Shown here: in pieces, positions 10,052 to 16,004 of the stretch | How positions within the stretch are numbered: position 1 is the stretch's first letter | How the letters are laid out: each line of letters starts with the position of its first letter | Assembly: GCF_028289855.1 (NCBI RefSeq) | Contig: NZ_JAQGKZ010000055.1 | Span: 1-64,000 of the forward strand | Direction of reading: 5' to 3' | DNA length: 64,000 bases | From: Sphingomonas bacterium | GTDB lineage: Bacteria > Pseudomonadota > Alphaproteobacteria > Sphingomonadales > Sphingomonadaceae | Translations under genes and position numbers: made by a program | The notes under the pieces: model-generated | Databases searched by the model: none | Told to the model about the DNA's origin: nothing | Seen by the model: only the letters and a program-made list of their open reading frames with translations

Positions 10052-10645
10052 ATGTTTATGTATTTTGAAAACCGCGGCCGTGGCTGCCATCCCGGGATGC
10101 GTCAGGGCATGCATCGCGGCTGGGGCCAACACGCCCGCCATTGGGGCGGCCGCGGTGAACGCGGGCCGCGCGGCGAAGGCCGTTCGCGGCGAATGTTCGA
10201 CGGCGGCGAGCTTCGGCTCGTGCTGCTCAAGTTGATCGCCAACGAACCACGCCACGGCTATGACCTGATCCGCCAGATCGAGGAACTGACCGGCGGCGCT
10301 TACGCTCCGAGTCCCGGCGTGGTCTATCCGACCATCACGTTGCTCGACGACATGGGGCTGATCGCGCAGCAGCAGAGCGAGGGCGCCAAGAAGGCGTTCG
10401 CGATCACCGACGCCGGCACCGCCGAGCTCGACGCCAACAAGGAGCTGGTCGACACGCTGTTCGCCCGCCTGGCCGCGCTGGGCGCGGAGCGGCAGAAGAC
10501 CGACGTGAAGTCGGTGCGCCGCGCGATGGGCAATCTGCGCGAAGTGCTGATCAACCGGCTCAGCGCGGGCGATTTCGACGAGAACACGCTGCACGATGTC
10601 GTCGCGCTGATCGACGAGGTCGCGCAGAAGATCGAGCGGCTGTAA
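10052..10645 (+). CDS. PadR family transcriptional regulator
   Basis: FDGGELRLVLLKLIANEPRHGYDLIRQIEELTGGAYAPSPGVVYPTITLLDDMGLI. Confidence 0.93.
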   Translation: MFMYFENRGRGCHPGMRQGMHRGWGQHARHWGGRGERGPRGEGRSRRMFDGGELRLVLLKLIANEPRHGYDLIRQIEELTGGAYAPSPGVVYPTITLLDDMGLIAQQQSEGAKKAFAITDAGTAELDANKELVDTLFARLAALGAERQKTDVKSVRRAMGNLREVLINRLSAGDFDENTLHDVVALIDEVAQKIERL

Positions 10646-10732
10646 CCGTGGGCGGCACCAGCCGTCTCGCCATTCTCCGCCGGCGGCTCGGTCTCGACGA
10701 CCCGGCCGCCGGCGCCTCATCGAAAGACTCCC

Positions 10733-11047
10733 ATGACCATTTCCGCGACCGCCAGGGTGCCGACCGCGAGCGCCAGCAAATATCTCCAACAGCTGTGCAA
10801 GCATTGGCAGCACAATCTGACCGTTGAGTTCGCCACCGATCACGGCACGGTCATATTCCCGAAGGATGCGCGCGGTGCCGACTGGCCGGGCGAGGGACTG
10901 GTGACGTTCGATGCTGGCCCATCCGCGCTCGACGTGCGGATCGACGCCAGCGTCGAAGCCCAACTCGAAGGTCTGAAAGGCGCCGTCGCCCGTCACTTAG
11001 ACCGCTTCGCTTTCCGCGAAGCGCCGCTCACGTTCGATTGGCGCTAG
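10733..11047 (+). CDS. DUF2218 domain-containing protein
   Basis: ARVPTASASKYLQQLCKHWQHNLTVEFATDHGTVIF pattern. Confidence 0.85.
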   Translation: MTISATARVPTASASKYLQQLCKHWQHNLTVEFATDHGTVIFPKDARGADWPGEGLVTFDAGPSALDVRIDASVEAQLEGLKGAVARHLDRFAFREAPLTFDWR

Positions 11048-11448
11048 GCGTACCGCTGCGCCGTCGCGCGGATCAGCGCGATCATGTTGGGGATGCCCTG
11101 CGTGCGGTTCGAGCTGAGCTGGTTCTTCAGATCGAACGGCGCGAGGGCAGCGTCCACGTCGGTTGCCAGGATGTCCGTCGGCGATCGGTCCTGCACCGTC
11201 GCCAGCACCAGCGCGATAATGCCCTTTGTAATCGCGGCGTTGCTGTCGGCGAGGAAGTGGAGCGTGCCGTCGGCCCGCACCGTGGGATAGACCCACACCG
11301 ACGCTGAGCAGCCGCGGACAAGGGTGGTGTCGGTCTTAAGCGGCTCGGGCATGTCCTCGAGCCCGCGGCCCAGGTCGATCAACAGGCGATAGCGATCGTC
11401 GGCGTCGAGGAACTCGAATTCGTCTTGCAGATCGGCGAGGCTGGGCAT
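11044..11448 (-). CDS. SufE family protein
   Basis: MPSLADLQDEFEFLDADDRYRLLIDLGRGLEDMPEPLKTDTTLVRGCSASVW; Cys in RGCSASVW. Confidence 0.93.
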   Translation of the reverse strand: MPSLADLQDEFEFLDADDRYRLLIDLGRGLEDMPEPLKTDTTLVRGCSASVWVYPTVRADGTLHFLADSNAAITKGIIALVLATVQDRSPTDILATDVDAALAPFDLKNQLSSNRTQGIPNMIALIRATAQRYA

Positions 11449-11488
11449 GCTCGACGCTATAGCGTGGCGTCGCCGGTTGGTAACCCGG

Positions 11489-11592
11489 CGTCGTGCTGAA
11501 CTTGTTTCAGCATCCATGCGATCCGATCAATCCCAAGCGGACGGCTACAGGCTGAGCGCGCGCATGGATGCTGAAACGAGTTCAGCATGACG
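11489..11592. repeat. Long-armed inverted repeat (REP-pair-like)
   Basis: CGTCGTGCTGAACTTGTTTCAGCATCCATGCG (11489..11520) and its near-perfect reverse complement (11561..11592). Confidence 0.85.
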
Positions 11593-11600
11593 GGTGGATG

Positions 11601-11849
11601 CTACAGATCCACCCCCGACGCGATCGCCTCGAGCTTGCGGATGCGTTCCTTCAAATCCGCGATCTCAATCCGCGCGCTGGCGTTGGGCAGCGTCGGGCCG
11701 TCGGTGTGGCCGTGGTCGGCGAACGTGGTCAGCTCGCGTTCCTTGAGGCTCAGCCAGCCGCGCCAGCCGGCGAGGCCCGCGAGGCAAACCATGCCCAGTC
11801 CGGCCAGGCTCGCGCCCGCCATGGTGAAGTAAAGGTTGGGGTCGGTCAT
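11601..11849 (-). CDS. Small TM/coiled-coil protein, distal Psp cluster
   Basis: MTDPNLYFTMAGASLAGLGMVCLAGLAGWRGWLSLKE...IEIADLKERIRKLEAIASGVDL. Confidence 0.65.
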   Translation of the reverse strand: MTDPNLYFTMAGASLAGLGMVCLAGLAGWRGWLSLKERELTTFADHGHTDGPTLPNASARIEIADLKERIRKLEAIASGVDL

Positions 11850-11880
11850 GACAGACGTCTCCATGCTAATAGGCGACCGG

Positions 11881-12147
11881 TCAGCGGTCGGTGTTGCGCA
11901 GCTGCTCGATCTCGCGGTCGAGGGTGCTGCTGGTGTTGGTGTCGGTGATTACGCGTTCGAGCACCGCGATGCGTTCCTTGAGGCCACGAATGTCCTCGCG
12001 CAGCTGCTTGTTCTCGGTCGCCGTCGCATCGTCGCGCAGGCTGTAATCGTTGCCGTGCTTGTCGCGGCCGACGCCGTACCTGGCGCGCAGAATGCCGCCC
12101 ACGGTGACGATCAGAACGATGCCGATGACCATTTCGAAGGGGTTCAT
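11881..12147 (-). CDS. PspB-like small TM/coiled-coil protein
   Basis: MNPFEMVIGIVLIVTVGGILRARYG...LREDIRGLKERIAVLERVITDTNTSSTLDREIEQLRNTDR. Confidence 0.75.
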   Translation of the reverse strand: MNPFEMVIGIVLIVTVGGILRARYGVGRDKHGNDYSLRDDATATENKQLREDIRGLKERIAVLERVITDTNTSSTLDREIEQLRNTDR

Positions 12148-12173
12148 GGGGAGGCTCCCTCAGCTTCGGTTTG

Positions 12174-12299
12174 TTATTCGGCCGGCTGGATCTGCGCTTC
12201 GCGCATCGCGCGGCGGCGCGGACGATCGACCCGCTCGGTCAGCCAGACCGCGATGCCCGTGGGGATCGCGATGACGGCGATGAAGATAATCAGTCCCAT
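12174..12299 (-). CDS. 41-aa small membrane protein in Psp cluster
   Basis: MGLIIFIAVIAIPTGIAVWLTERVDRPRRRAMREAQIQPAE; ATG at 12299, TAA at 12174; fills the gap between co-directional genes. Confidence 0.6.
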   Translation of the reverse strand: MGLIIFIAVIAIPTGIAVWLTERVDRPRRRAMREAQIQPAE

Positions 12300-12310
12300 T
12301 GTTACGTCCT

Positions 12311-12586
12311 TCAATTGAGCGGCGCGGGGTCGTCGCGCAGCTTTTCGATTTCTTCGGCGACATCGATGCCGCGGTCGGTGACGATGCGTTCGAGAACGCG
12401 CATCCGTTGTTCCAGCCGTTCGGTCTGGGCCGCATATTGCGCGGCCTTTTCGGCGACCTTGTCGGCCTGGAGCTCGAGCTGGCGCTGGCGATAGGCGAAC
12501 CAGGGCTTCACGAAGACGCCGCCGATAATCGCCAGCAGGCCGCACGAGATGCCGAGAACCGGAATGAGTAGAACGTTGATCATCAA
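12311..12586 (-). CDS. PspB-like small TM/coiled-coil protein
   Basis: MMINVLLIPVLGISCGLLAIIGGVFVKPW...TERLEQRMRVLERIVTDRGIDVAEEIEKLRDDPAPLN. Confidence 0.75.
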   Translation of the reverse strand: MMINVLLIPVLGISCGLLAIIGGVFVKPWFAYRQRQLELQADKVAEKAAQYAAQTERLEQRMRVLERIVTDRGIDVAEEIEKLRDDPAPLN

Positions 12587-12594
12587 ATTCCCTT

Positions 12595-12909
12595 TCAGTC
12601 GCGGCTGCGCAGTTCGTCGATTTCGCGGCTGACGCGCTCGGCGGGATCGGTGGCGATCCGTTCGAGCACGCGCAGGCGCTCCTCGAGCCGTCCGATCTGG
12701 CCGACCAGCTTCTCGTTTTCACTCGAAAGCAGTTCGACCTTGCGCTCCGCTTCCATGTCGCTGGCGACGAAGCCGTTGCGGCGGTTATTGCGGCGCGTGG
12801 AGCGGTCCTCCAGCGGCAATCCGTGCTTGGCGCGGATCGACATCTTGATGATCCCACCGAAGATGCCCATCGCGATGATCGCCAGGACGAAAAGTTGACC
12901 GTCGTGCAT
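12595..12909 (-). CDS. PspB-like small TM/coiled-coil protein
   Basis: MHDGQLFVLAIIAMGIFGGIIKMSIRAKHGLPLED...GQIGRLEERLRVLERIATDPAERVSREIDELRSRD. Confidence 0.8.
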   Translation of the reverse strand: MHDGQLFVLAIIAMGIFGGIIKMSIRAKHGLPLEDRSTRRNNRRNGFVASDMEAERKVELLSSENEKLVGQIGRLEERLRVLERIATDPAERVSREIDELRSRD

Positions 12910-12933
12910 TTATTTTCTCCCTAATCCAGTCGG

Positions 12934-13218
12934 TCAGCGCAGCGCGTCGATTTCGCGGGCGGTGCGCTCGGCGGGATCGGTGGCGATCCGTTCGAGTACC
13001 GCGAGCCGCGCTTCGAGCCGCGTAATCTGGCCGGCCTGGCGTTCGTTCTCATTGGTCAGCAATTCGACCTGGCGCTTGGCGCCGACTTCATCGCTGCCCT
13101 CCGGCTCTTCGAGCGGGTAACCGTGCCTGGCGCGGACCCAGGTATTCGCGACCCAGGCGACCGGCCCAATGGTCACCGCGGCGATCGGAATAAGAATCCC
13201 AAGTTCTGACATGCTCAT
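12934..13218 (-). CDS. PspB-like small TM/coiled-coil protein
   Basis: MSMSELGILIPIAAVTIGPVAWVANTWVRARHGYPLEE...GQITRLEARLAVLERIATDPAERTAREIDALR. Confidence 0.8.
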   Translation of the reverse strand: MSMSELGILIPIAAVTIGPVAWVANTWVRARHGYPLEEPEGSDEVGAKRQVELLTNENERQAGQITRLEARLAVLERIATDPAERTAREIDALR

Positions 13219-13240
13219 CGTGAACCTCCCGTTCAGCCGC

Positions 13241-13618
13241 TCAGCGCAGGCTGTCGATTTCGTCGGCCAGCCGGCTGTTGCGGCTGGTATAGAGCGTCTC
13301 GATATCGGCGAGCCGGCGATCGAGATCGCGGAACTTGGAGCGGACCTCGGCGGTCGAGCGCGACGGATTGGTGCGCACGCCCTGCCAGAACTTCGCGTCC
13401 TCGGCGTCCTCGTACAGGCCGAACGGCTTGTGGGGGGCGACCCAGGCGGTGATGAAGTAGGCGGGGATGACCCAACCCGAGGTGATCAGCGCCAGGACCA
13501 CGGTGCCGACGCGAACCATCGTCACATCGATACCGGTGTACTCGGCGATCCCCGCGCAGACCCCAAGGAACTTCTTGTTCTGCTTGTCGAGGTAGAATTT
13601 GGTGCGGCTGGCGGACAT
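13241..13618 (-). CDS. pspC: PspC-domain envelope stress protein
   Basis: FYLDKQNKKFLGVCAGIAEYTGIDVTMVRVGTVVLALITSGWVIPAYFITAWVAP; internal start inside ORF 13241..13702. Confidence 0.92.
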   Translation of the reverse strand: MSASRTKFYLDKQNKKFLGVCAGIAEYTGIDVTMVRVGTVVLALITSGWVIPAYFITAWVAPHKPFGLYEDAEDAKFWQGVRTNPSRSTAEVRSKFRDLDRRLADIETLYTSRNSRLADEIDSLR

Positions 13619-13619
13619 T

Positions 13620-13892
13620 TCAGTTCCTCCGGGTGGTAGGGAATTCGGCCGGGTCGGCGGCGAGCGGCATGCTCGACTTCCAGTCCGGGTGGTCGGCGGC
13701 AACGATGCGTTCGACCGTGGAAACGCGATCTTCGAGGCGGCGCGCGAGCGAGTAGAGCTCGTCGAGCAGCTTTTCGTCCTCGTTCGTGATCTTCGGCGCT
13801 TGCTTCCATTTCGTGACGTAGTGGAAGATCAGCCAAGGGAGGCCGATGAACAGCATCCCGACGATCAGGACGGGCAACAGAAACTCGTCCAT
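13620..13892 (-). CDS. pspB: PspB envelope stress response membrane protein
   Basis: MDEFLLPVLIVGMLFIGLPWLIFHYVTKWKQAPKITNEDEKLLDELYSLARRLEDRVSTVERIVAADHPDW. Confidence 0.93.
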   Translation of the reverse strand: MDEFLLPVLIVGMLFIGLPWLIFHYVTKWKQAPKITNEDEKLLDELYSLARRLEDRVSTVERIVAADHPDWKSSMPLAADPAEFPTTRRN

Positions 13893-13895
13893 GGC

Positions 13896-14564
13896 TTACG
13901 ATCCCTTCTTGATACGCGCCTTGAGCGCTTCGAGTTCGGCATCGACCTTTTCGGATGCCTTCAACTCGGCCATTTCCTCCTCCAGCGTCTTGGGCATGCT
14001 GCCCAATCCGGCGGCTTCGGCGCGGCCCTCGGCCAGGTCGACCTGACGCTCCATCACGTCGAAGCGCGAGAAGGCGTCCTGCGTGCGGCCGGCCGAATAG
14101 ACTTCGCGGATGCGGAAGCGGTTGTGCGCGGTTTCGAGCCGGGTTGAGATCGACGACTGGCGGTTGCGCGCCTCGTTCAGCTTCTTCTGCAGCTTGGCGA
14201 TATCCTCTTCGGATGCGCGCAACGCATCGTCGAGCACGGTGATCTGGCCGGTCAGTTCGGCGGCCATGTTGGTCGCCTTCTGCCGCTCGACCAGGGCCGC
14301 TTTGGCCAGGTCCTCGCGATCCTTCGACAGCGCCAGTTCGGCCTTCTCGGTCCAGCTTTCCTCGAGCTGGGTGAGCTTGCCGATATGGCGCCGCATCTCC
14401 TTCTGGTCGGCGATGGTGCGCGCGGCGGAGGCGCGAACCTCGACCAGCGTTTCTTCCATCTCCAGGATGATCATGCGGATCATCTTCGCCGGGTCTTCAG
14501 CCTTGTCGAGCAAGTCGGTGAAGTTGGCGGCGATGATGTCGCGGGTTCGCGAAAAAATGCCCAT
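13896..14564 (-). CDS. pspA: Phage shock protein A (PspA/IM30)
   Basis: MGIFSRTRDIIAANFTDLLDKAEDPAKMIRMIILEMEETLVEVRASAARTIADQKE... Confidence 0.95.
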   Translation of the reverse strand: MGIFSRTRDIIAANFTDLLDKAEDPAKMIRMIILEMEETLVEVRASAARTIADQKEMRRHIGKLTQLEESWTEKAELALSKDREDLAKAALVERQKATNMAAELTGQITVLDDALRASEEDIAKLQKKLNEARNRQSSISTRLETAHNRFRIREVYSAGRTQDAFSRFDVMERQVDLAEGRAEAAGLGSMPKTLEEEMAELKASEKVDAELEALKARIKKGS

Positions 14565-14608
14565 GTTGGTGTTACTCCTCGGAAATCTACGCTTTACTCG
14601 GTGGGGAT

Positions 14609-14644
14609 GCCGGGGCGGGCAGCAAGGGGGAAACCCGCCCCGGC
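14609..14644. other. GC-rich stem-loop between the 52-aa ORF and pspA
   Basis: GCCGGGGCGGG (14609..14619) / CCCGCCCCGGC (14634..14644); no U-tract on the transcribed minus strand. Confidence 0.7.
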
Positions 14645-14652
14645 AGTGGCCA

Positions 14653-14811
14653 TCACGCCCGGGGGGCGGCGGCAACCTGATGGGTTTGAGCGGCAGTCTG
14701 CGCTTGGGCCAGGCCGGGGCCGAGCGCCGCCATCATCAGCGACGACCCGCACACCAAGGTGCTGACGACCACCACGACCGTGCGGCCCAGACCATTCGAA
14801 AACTTGTCCAT
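14653..14811 (-). CDS. 52-aa ORF with signal-peptide-like N-terminus, first ORF after the psp sigma-54 promoter
   Basis: MDKFSNGLGRTVVVVVSTLVCGSSLMMAALGPGLAQAQTAAQTHQVAAAPRA; within ORF 14653..14952. Confidence 0.55.
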   Translation of the reverse strand: MDKFSNGLGRTVVVVVSTLVCGSSLMMAALGPGLAQAQTAAQTHQVAAAPRA

Positions 14812-14864
14812 TGTCTTACTCCCTAGAATTTCGTTGCGCCGTCGGGCGGCGTTGCCAAGGTGAT

Positions 14865-14881
14865 TGCAGCTAGCGTGCCAA
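14865..14881 (-). promoter_or_regulatory. Sigma-54 (-24/-12) promoter of the psp operon
   Basis: Minus strand TTGGCACGCTAGCTGCA, matching TGGCACG-N4-TTGCA with one substitution; next to divergent pspF. Confidence 0.85.
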
Positions 14882-14987
14882 TTGCGGAAAACGGCGGAAA
14901 TCCGCCGTTCCTGGCCCAATTTCGGATTGGCCAGCGGCTTTTCGCTTGCCAACGGTTGGGAAAATACACCAAGTGTTGGGAATGGTA

Positions 14988-16004
14988 ATGGAGCGCACGT
15001 CCCAGGTTATCGGTCAGTCGGGTCCGTTCCTCGATGCGCTCGAGCGCGCGAGCCGCGCCGCCGCGCTCGACCGTCCCGTATTGGTGATCGGCGAGCGCGG
15101 TACCGGCAAGGAACTGGTCGCCGAACGCCTCCACCGCCTGAGCCCGCGCTGGGACCACCCGCTGATCATCATGAATTGCGCGGCGCTGCCCGAGACGCTG
15201 ATCGAGGCCGAACTGTTCGGGCACGAGGCTGGGGCGTTCACCGGCGCGACGCGCGCGCGGCCGGGGCGGTTCGAGGAAGCCGACGGCGGGACGCTGTTCC
15301 TCGACGAACTCGGCACGCTGTCGATGGCGGCGCAGGAGCGGCTTCTACGCGCGGTCGAATATGGCGAGGTGACGCGGATCGGCTCGTCGCACCCGGTGCG
15401 GGTCGATGTCCGCATCGTCGCCGCGACCAACGAGAATCTGCCCGACAAGGTCGAGCGCAATCAGTTTCGCGCCGACCTGCTCGACCGGTTGAGCTTCGAG
15501 GTGGTCACCTTGCCCCCTCTTCGCGCGCGGCCCGGCGACGTCGGGGTGCTCGCCGACCATTTCGGGCGGCGGATGGCGGCGGAGATGGCGCGCGATTGGG
15601 AAGGGTTCGCGCCCGAGGCGATCGACGCGCTGATCGATTACCAATGGCCGGGCAACGTCCGCGAGTTGCGCAACGTCGTCGAACGCGCGGTGTATCGTTG
15701 GGAGCAACCGGGGCCGATCGCGCTGATCGAATTCGACCCGTTCCAGTCGCCGCATCGCCCAGGGGCGAGCGATGCGCCGCAAGCGCCCGCGCCGGCGCCC
15801 ATCACGCCGACGCCATCGGTCGGCCCGGGCGACGCCGAGCCCGCCGATTTCAAGTCGCGCGTGGCGCGCTTCGAACGCGACGTGCTGGCCAAGGCGCTCG
15901 CCGCCAACCGCTTCAACCAGCGCCACACCGCCGATGCGCTGGGCCTGAGCTACGACCAGCTCCGCCATGCGCTGCGCCGCCACGATCTGCTGCCCGGCGG
16001 GTGA
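14988..16004 (+). CDS. pspF: PspF-like sigma-54 activator
   Basis: AAA+ domain with GERGTGKE, GAFTGA loop, QWPGNVREL; no N-terminal receiver domain; divergent from pspA operon. Confidence 0.93.
   Translation: MERTSQVIGQSGPFLDALERASRAAALDRPVLVIGERGTGKELVAERLHRLSPRWDHPLIIMNCAALPETLIEAELFGHEAGAFTGATRARPGRFEEADGGTLFLDELGTLSMAAQERLLRAVEYGEVTRIGSSHPVRVDVRIVAATNENLPDKVERNQFRADLLDRLSFEVVTLPPLRARPGDVGVLADHFGRRMAAEMARDWEGFAPEAIDALIDYQWPGNVRELRNVVERAVYRWEQPGPIALIEFDPFQSPHRPGASDAPQAPAPAPITPTPSVGPGDAEPADFKSRVARFERDVLAKALAANRFNQRHTADALGLSYDQLRHALRRHDLLPGG

Follow-up and report, generated by a model that had tools for sequence, protein, structure and literature searches.

Small membrane proteins related to PspB and to the PspC tail form an array in the psp operon of Sphingomonadaceae

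The psp operon guards the inner membrane against damage. Here we describe the psp locus of a Sphingomonas bacterium (NCBI RefSeq assembly GCF_028289855.1, contig NZ_JAQGKZ010000055.1), in which pspC is followed by six small genes, o1 to o6. Judged by their sequences, four of these (o1, o2, o3 and o5) constitute one real protein family, hereafter family A, which no Pfam or NCBIfam model covers. The window, to which coordinates refer unless another locus is named, is the whole stretch of 64,000 nucleotides (nt) analysed, positions 1 to 64,000 of the contig.

The psp operon and its small genes

On the minus strand the genes follow one another in the order leader open reading frame (ORF), pspA (13896..14564), pspB (13620..13892), pspC (13241..13618) and o1 to o6, and the gene for the sigma54 activator PspF (14946..16004, plus strand) lies divergently from them. 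The four core proteins all score above the curated cut-offs, with 460 bits for PspF (TIGR02974, cut-off 443.55), 272 bits for PspA (TIGR02977), 93.7 bits for PspB (PF06667, the sole PspB match in the genome) and 115.6 bits for PspC (TIGR02978), and by this content the locus is a psp operon. The first start codon of pspF is a TTG, with in-frame ATGs at 14982 and 14988, and PspC has 125 amino acids (aa) and a C-terminal tail ending in RRLADIETLYTSRNSRLADEIDSLR.

A -24/-12 sigma54 promoter sequence, TGGCACGCTAGCTGCA (14865..14880, minus strand), agrees with the consensus at 11 of 12 positions and stands upstream of the leader ORF (14653..14811, minus strand), whose 52-aa product has one hydrophobic segment, resembles a signal peptide and belongs to no Pfam family. 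Of 135 related psp loci, 104 have a site with at least 10 of the 12 consensus positions ahead of pspA, against 1 of 135 for a control stretch inside pspA, and a small hydrophobic ORF precedes pspA in 78 of 100 tested loci, its sequence similarity being recognisable among relatives. From pspC through o6 the genes are 11-26 nt apart; across loci the median array gap is 23 nt, and overlaps of -1 or -4 account for 71 of the gaps. A scan for sigma70-like promoter sites found none; like the gaps and the overlaps, this bears only indirectly on a possible stress-induced co-transcription of all the genes.

The sequence-only reading of this DNA had placed six short co-directional ORFs, separated by short gaps, 3' of pspC, and all six lie where it put them. 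They are under purifying selection, the ratio of nonsynonymous to synonymous substitution rates (dN/dS) against relatives being 0.12-0.51 for all six, o4 included. None of them scores above any curated Pfam or NCBIfam cut-off; the best sub-threshold matches are those of o3, with 15.1 of 25.6 bits for PspB (Pfam) and 16.8 of 104 bits for PspC, and against TIGR02976 (PspB) o3 reaches 16.1 of 51.7 bits, the best score among o1, o2, o3, o5 and o6.

Homology of family A to PspB and to the PspC tail

All four members of family A are encoded on the minus strand: o1 (12934..13218, 94 aa, transmembrane (TM) segment at 6-24), o2 (12595..12909, 104 aa, TM segment at 7-25), o3 (12311..12586, 90 aa from an ATG or 91 aa from a TTG) and o5 (11881..12147, 88 aa). 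They match the family profile with E-values of 4.4e-24, 1.5e-24, 4.9e-23 and 1.4e-22, respectively, and their pairwise z scores against region-wise shuffles are 30 for o1-o2, 11.5 for o1-o3, 10 for both o2-o3 and o2-o5, and 8 for both o1-o5 and o3-o5. The repeated pattern LxxRhxVLERI...EIxxLR that had been noticed in these ORFs is therefore not a product of chance, and it is present in 386 of the 419 family A members at the loci compared, where the consensus reads LxxRhxVLERIATD....LAxEIExLRD; outside the motif the sequence evolves fast. These members belong to a set of 529 array proteins, drawn from 117 Sphingomonadaceae arrays and from single genes at three loci of a related family, with the matches at each locus taken as the best non-overlapping ones. 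At all three settings clustering divided this set into two clusters, of 419 (family A) and 110 proteins (o6), and because it always gave only two, subtypes were taken from a tree built on few columns, in which many forks stay unresolved. There o1 and o2 fall into subtype S1, o3 into S3 (S3 clade 100/97) and o5 into the weakly supported S5, S2 being absent from the window. The subtypes span genera, as expected if the duplications are ancient and copy number then changed within single lineages.

Profile comparison with hhalign linked family A to PspB with a probability of 95.0 (reversed control 3.1), to the second TM segment and tail of PspC with 95.0 and to o6 with 94.1, the reversed controls as a whole giving 0.3-7.1. 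For the tail alone, the match was 94.0 with PspC versus 69.2 with PspB. Against shuffles, PspC was matched by each of o1, o2, o3 and o5, most strongly by o1 (z of 9.2), and PspB matched o1 to o3 with a z of about 5. A search of its own genome with the family A profile recovered only o1, o2, o3, o5 and the PspC tail (E-value 8.5e-7); PspB was not recovered at an E-value of 1e-3. Searches of PDB sequences returned generic coiled coils for family A and nothing for PspC, and the PspC core domain (PF04024) has no match in o1 to o6. Generic coiled-coil similarity, considered as the null for family A, is ruled out by the reversed alignments and the whole-genome search; the sequence-only reading had named a homology limited to coiled-coil composition as the finding that would undo it, and the match to PspB goes beyond that.

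The first half of family A is PspB-like (RLEDRV..VERI) and its end is like the PspC tail (ADIETLYTSRNSRLADEIDSLR), the motif T[D/S]xxxxLAxEIxxLR standing in place of the PspB end ILDAExPxWR (as in relatives). By these comparisons family A consists of PspB-shaped proteins with a PspC-type tail, and not of copies of pspB. The earlier proposal that PspB was duplicated and diversified here is half right, since the end motif is PspC-like and not PspB-like: an expanded, conserved and PspB-homologous set of paralogues does exist, but it is equally near to the second TM segment and tail of PspC, and at its C-terminal end much nearer to PspC. The expected relationship to the Pfam PspB family likewise survives only as remote homology between profiles, all the small ORFs remaining below the cut-off of that model.

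The positive-inside pattern predicts an N-out/C-in orientation for 523 of the 529 array proteins, and for family A an N-terminal TM segment followed by a cytosolic amphipathic helix is predicted, as in the layout of PspB, with coils in the cytosol. AlphaFold2 models of single chains gave for o2 a TM helix at 3-29 and a long helix at 49-103 (mean predicted local distance difference test (pLDDT) score of 85.7), and for o6 two helices (mean pLDDT of 85.0).

The last gene, o6 (11601..11864, minus strand, 87 aa), has a near-invariant end, ARIEIADLKERIRKLEAIA(S/A)GVDL, and is terminal in 110 of the 117 arrays, never taking another position. Besides its profile match to family A it scores about 1 with PspB and with PspC, and its pairwise match to the other ORFs is weak against shuffles. 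With its separate cluster of 110 proteins, o6 appears by these measures to be a highly conserved family apart from family A and related to it at the profile level only; the sequence-only reading had seen in it a shortened version of the shared pattern. The microprotein o4 (12174..12299, minus strand, 41 aa, one TM segment), between o3 and o5, also stands outside family A. It has no similarity to the other array ORFs in pairwise z scores against shuffles and none to known families; its dN/dS is 0.17-0.32, and a gene of its type occurs in 36 of the 117 arrays.

Directly after o6, at 11490-11591, an inverted repeat with two arms (CTGAAACRAGTTCAGCATGAC) has 2 matches in the window, with 0 expected by chance; it is possibly an element like the repetitive extragenic palindromic (REP) sequences or a terminator, and a terminator scan gave results at chance level. 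Downstream of the array (10052-11517) lie genes for a PadR-like regulator, a DUF2218 protein and SufE; PadR-type regulators are tied to other Psp systems in the available text of Ravi et al. 2024 (PMC11237479).

Distribution in Sphingomonadaceae and beyond

Family A is found in 193 of 201 Sphingomonadaceae genomes (84 of 89 genera), PspB in 191 and o6 in 178, and the array characterises the Sphingomonadaceae as a family and is no peculiarity of this genome. Family A and PspB occur together in 191 genomes and are both absent from 8; family A occurs without PspB in 2 genomes and PspB without family A in none. The 8 genomes without family A, from five genera, all lack PspA as well. Nearly every sphingomonad locus examined has the array, with 1-7 family A genes and mostly 3-4; one locus (L143) has a single array gene. 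The other Sphingomonadales families examined have a plain pspABC, except that one family (f8) has an A-like gene downstream of it and that PspB is duplicated in one genome of another (f5). Clearer PspB duplicates are present at loci L156 and L213.

One genome (G046, L241:1440-2908) has an operon of a leader-like ORF, pspA, a tail-less pspC (88 aa, about 20 aa past the core domain) and two family A genes, and pspB was found neither beside its pspA nor anywhere else in the genome. Over all loci, an A-like gene stands directly 3' of 5 of the 7 tail-less PspC ORFs, versus 2 of the 32 full-length PspC ORFs outside Sphingomonadaceae. The G046 operon and these tail-less genes fit a supply of PspB and PspC-tail function in trans by family A proteins.

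Second, tail-less copies of PspC, each with an A-like gene directly behind it, were seen in two other alphaproteobacterial families (L146:1679-2285, L148:1678-2306, L153:1696-2258 and L209, minus strand). Solitary genes for single-TM proteins like PspB or the PspC tail, scoring just short of the PspB cut-offs, occur at L224-L240, L242 and L243 (e.g., L225:2479-2719, L231:2420-2701 and L229:2468-3017, minus strand). At L208 and L226 (alphaproteobacterial family f133), two adjoining A-like genes stand beside what by eye appears to be a dUTPase gene, away from the pspA of the genome.

Possible role and comparison with known systems

In E. coli, the association of PspB with PspC goes through their membrane parts, and the leucine-zipper region of PspC (77-98) is required for contact with PspA and for signalling and induction (PMC3068692). 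On this basis we propose for the family A proteins the role of adaptors anchored in the membrane, and we lean, with reserve, towards seeing in them extra trans-acting adaptors of the PspB/PspC type, which in an enlarged psp operon would act on PspA from the inner membrane. Each would be built from a TM helix oriented N-out/C-in and, both in the cytosol, an amphipathic helix like that of PspB (RLExRhxVLERI) and the PspC-type end cap. The adaptors would join PspB and PspC in the inner membrane and their tails, whether in addition to the PspB and PspC tails or in their place, would touch PspA, either to pull it off PspF under stress (induction) or to anchor PspA assemblies at the damaged membrane (effector). 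Since PspF and sigma54 would switch the operon on as a unit, the adaptors should rise together with PspA. The subtypes, which differ mainly in the TM segment and the linker, may widen the range of what is sensed, and o6, the constant last gene, may encode a partner in assembly or capping. A bolder idea, which we regard as possible and yet doubtful, is that the sensor of the Psp system consists of modules acting in trans, with the PspA-binding tail of PspC and the coil of PspB as free-standing, interchangeable proteins, multiplied in Sphingomonadaceae into a combinatorial set that decides which stresses release PspA, and able, as the G046 operon and the PspC copies without a tail would indicate, to replace pspB and the PspC tail fully.

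The array genes could instead be plain diverged copies of pspB that still work as PspB with PspC, the view of the sequence-only reading, which saw in them a possible panel of hetero-oligomeric envelope-stress sensors. The full-length profile match to PspB, the layout of TM segment and helix common to both and the sub-threshold PspB scores (15.1 bits for o3, and 40.7 of 51.7 bits in TIGR02976 for a gammaproteobacterial relative) agree with it, as do the clearer duplicates at L156 and L213 and in the available text of Ravi et al. 2024. This leaves unexplained why the PspB end was swapped for a PspC-type one, why the tail alone matches PspC better than PspB and why the own-genome search finds the PspC tail and not PspB, and we consider it unlikely.

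Two further explanations accept the operon context and change the role. PspA is an ESCRT-III-like polymer, and family A proteins might be only inner-membrane anchors that organise this polymer under stress and contribute neither to sensing nor to the release of PspF; co-expression behind a PspF/sigma54 promoter is what one would expect of effectors, and the predicted cytosolic coils would suit them too. We nevertheless judge a purely scaffolding role improbable, as the conserved end cap is shared with that part of PspC which in its E. coli equivalent holds the signalling leucine zipper, and as the G046 operon, where family A genes stand in for pspB and the PspC tail, suggests a core role. Were the array proteins mere passengers of the psp promoter, single-TM coiled coils of a generic kind whose function in the envelope is unrelated, their fast evolution outside the motif and their distant relatives outside psp operons would be natural; their specific profile homology to PspB and PspC, the fact that 8 of 201 genomes lack family A and psp together and that none has PspB without family A, and the A-like genes adjoining tail-less PspC make this very improbable indeed.

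Several observations weigh against the adaptor proposal. As many as 133 of 419 reversed family A sequences reach an E-value below 1e-3 with the PspC tail model, so that single-sequence similarity to the tail is weak, and for this reason the claim of homology is based on profile comparison and genome-wide specificity. Two topologies have been proposed for E. coli PspC, one of them with a periplasmic tail (PMC3068692), which makes the cytosolic location of the family A tail uncertain. Other Alphaproteobacteria, and Gammaproteobacteria too, have single A-like genes, below the curated cut-offs, at a distance from psp, and linkage to psp is thus not a property of the whole superfamily. The variation from 1 to 7 copies implies that no single copy type is universally needed, and the sample of tail-less PspC genes is small and phylogenetically clumped (three of five from one family).

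The underlying principle is already published. The available text of Ravi et al. 2024 (PMC11237479) reports "PspB duplicates" in psp operons in one main-text sentence with one accession (AOL22920.1), and its variant operons resemble ours in principle, with additional coils of the PspB kind and a PspC tail that is itself like PspB; that text does not describe the clade-wide array of 1-7 genes and its subtypes, nor o6 or the leader ORF, nor the genomes that lack array and psp together, nor an operon in which pspB is replaced. A literature search, with most subscription journals and preprints outside its scope, found neither a paper on psp in Sphingomonas nor an account of the clade-wide array, its PspC-type end, o6 as a family of its own, genomes lacking both array and psp, or the variant without pspB. 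The exact array thus appears new within the literature searched, and the duplication of PspB as such does not. Zymomonas mobilis is reported to have a psp-like set (ZMO1061-ZMO1065) of which pspA, pspB and pspC are raised under ethanol; it includes a hypothetical gene, ZMO1062, standing where the leader ORF does, and the available text mentions no array genes (PMC3495753).

The step in which PspB and PspC perceive membrane damage and relay it to PspA is poorly understood, and the array offers a natural dissection of it: a whole bacterial family has the sensor parts separated and multiplied, and one genus does without pspB and the PspC tail. It also yields several conserved, uncharacterised membrane proteins and defines an uncurated PspB/PspC-tail-like family across Alpha- and Gammaproteobacteria. 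The array suggests that the Sphingomonadaceae have enlarged a classic stress response by spare sensor or anchor parts that can be exchanged. With the enterobacterial PspB (PF06667/TIGR02976) family A shares the N-terminal TM segment, the short cytosolic amphipathic helix RLExRh..hERI predicted for it and the pspF//pspA sigma54 operon; it differs in scoring below the curated cut-offs, in its PspC-type end and in the several copies per operon, alongside which a PspB proper is kept. With the tail of alphaproteobacterial PspC (TIGR02978, about 76-121) it shares the end R.AdhE.hhTS..xRL..Eh..L after a TM segment (match of 94-95), but family A proteins lack the core domain and come from free-standing genes, each with a single TM segment of its own.

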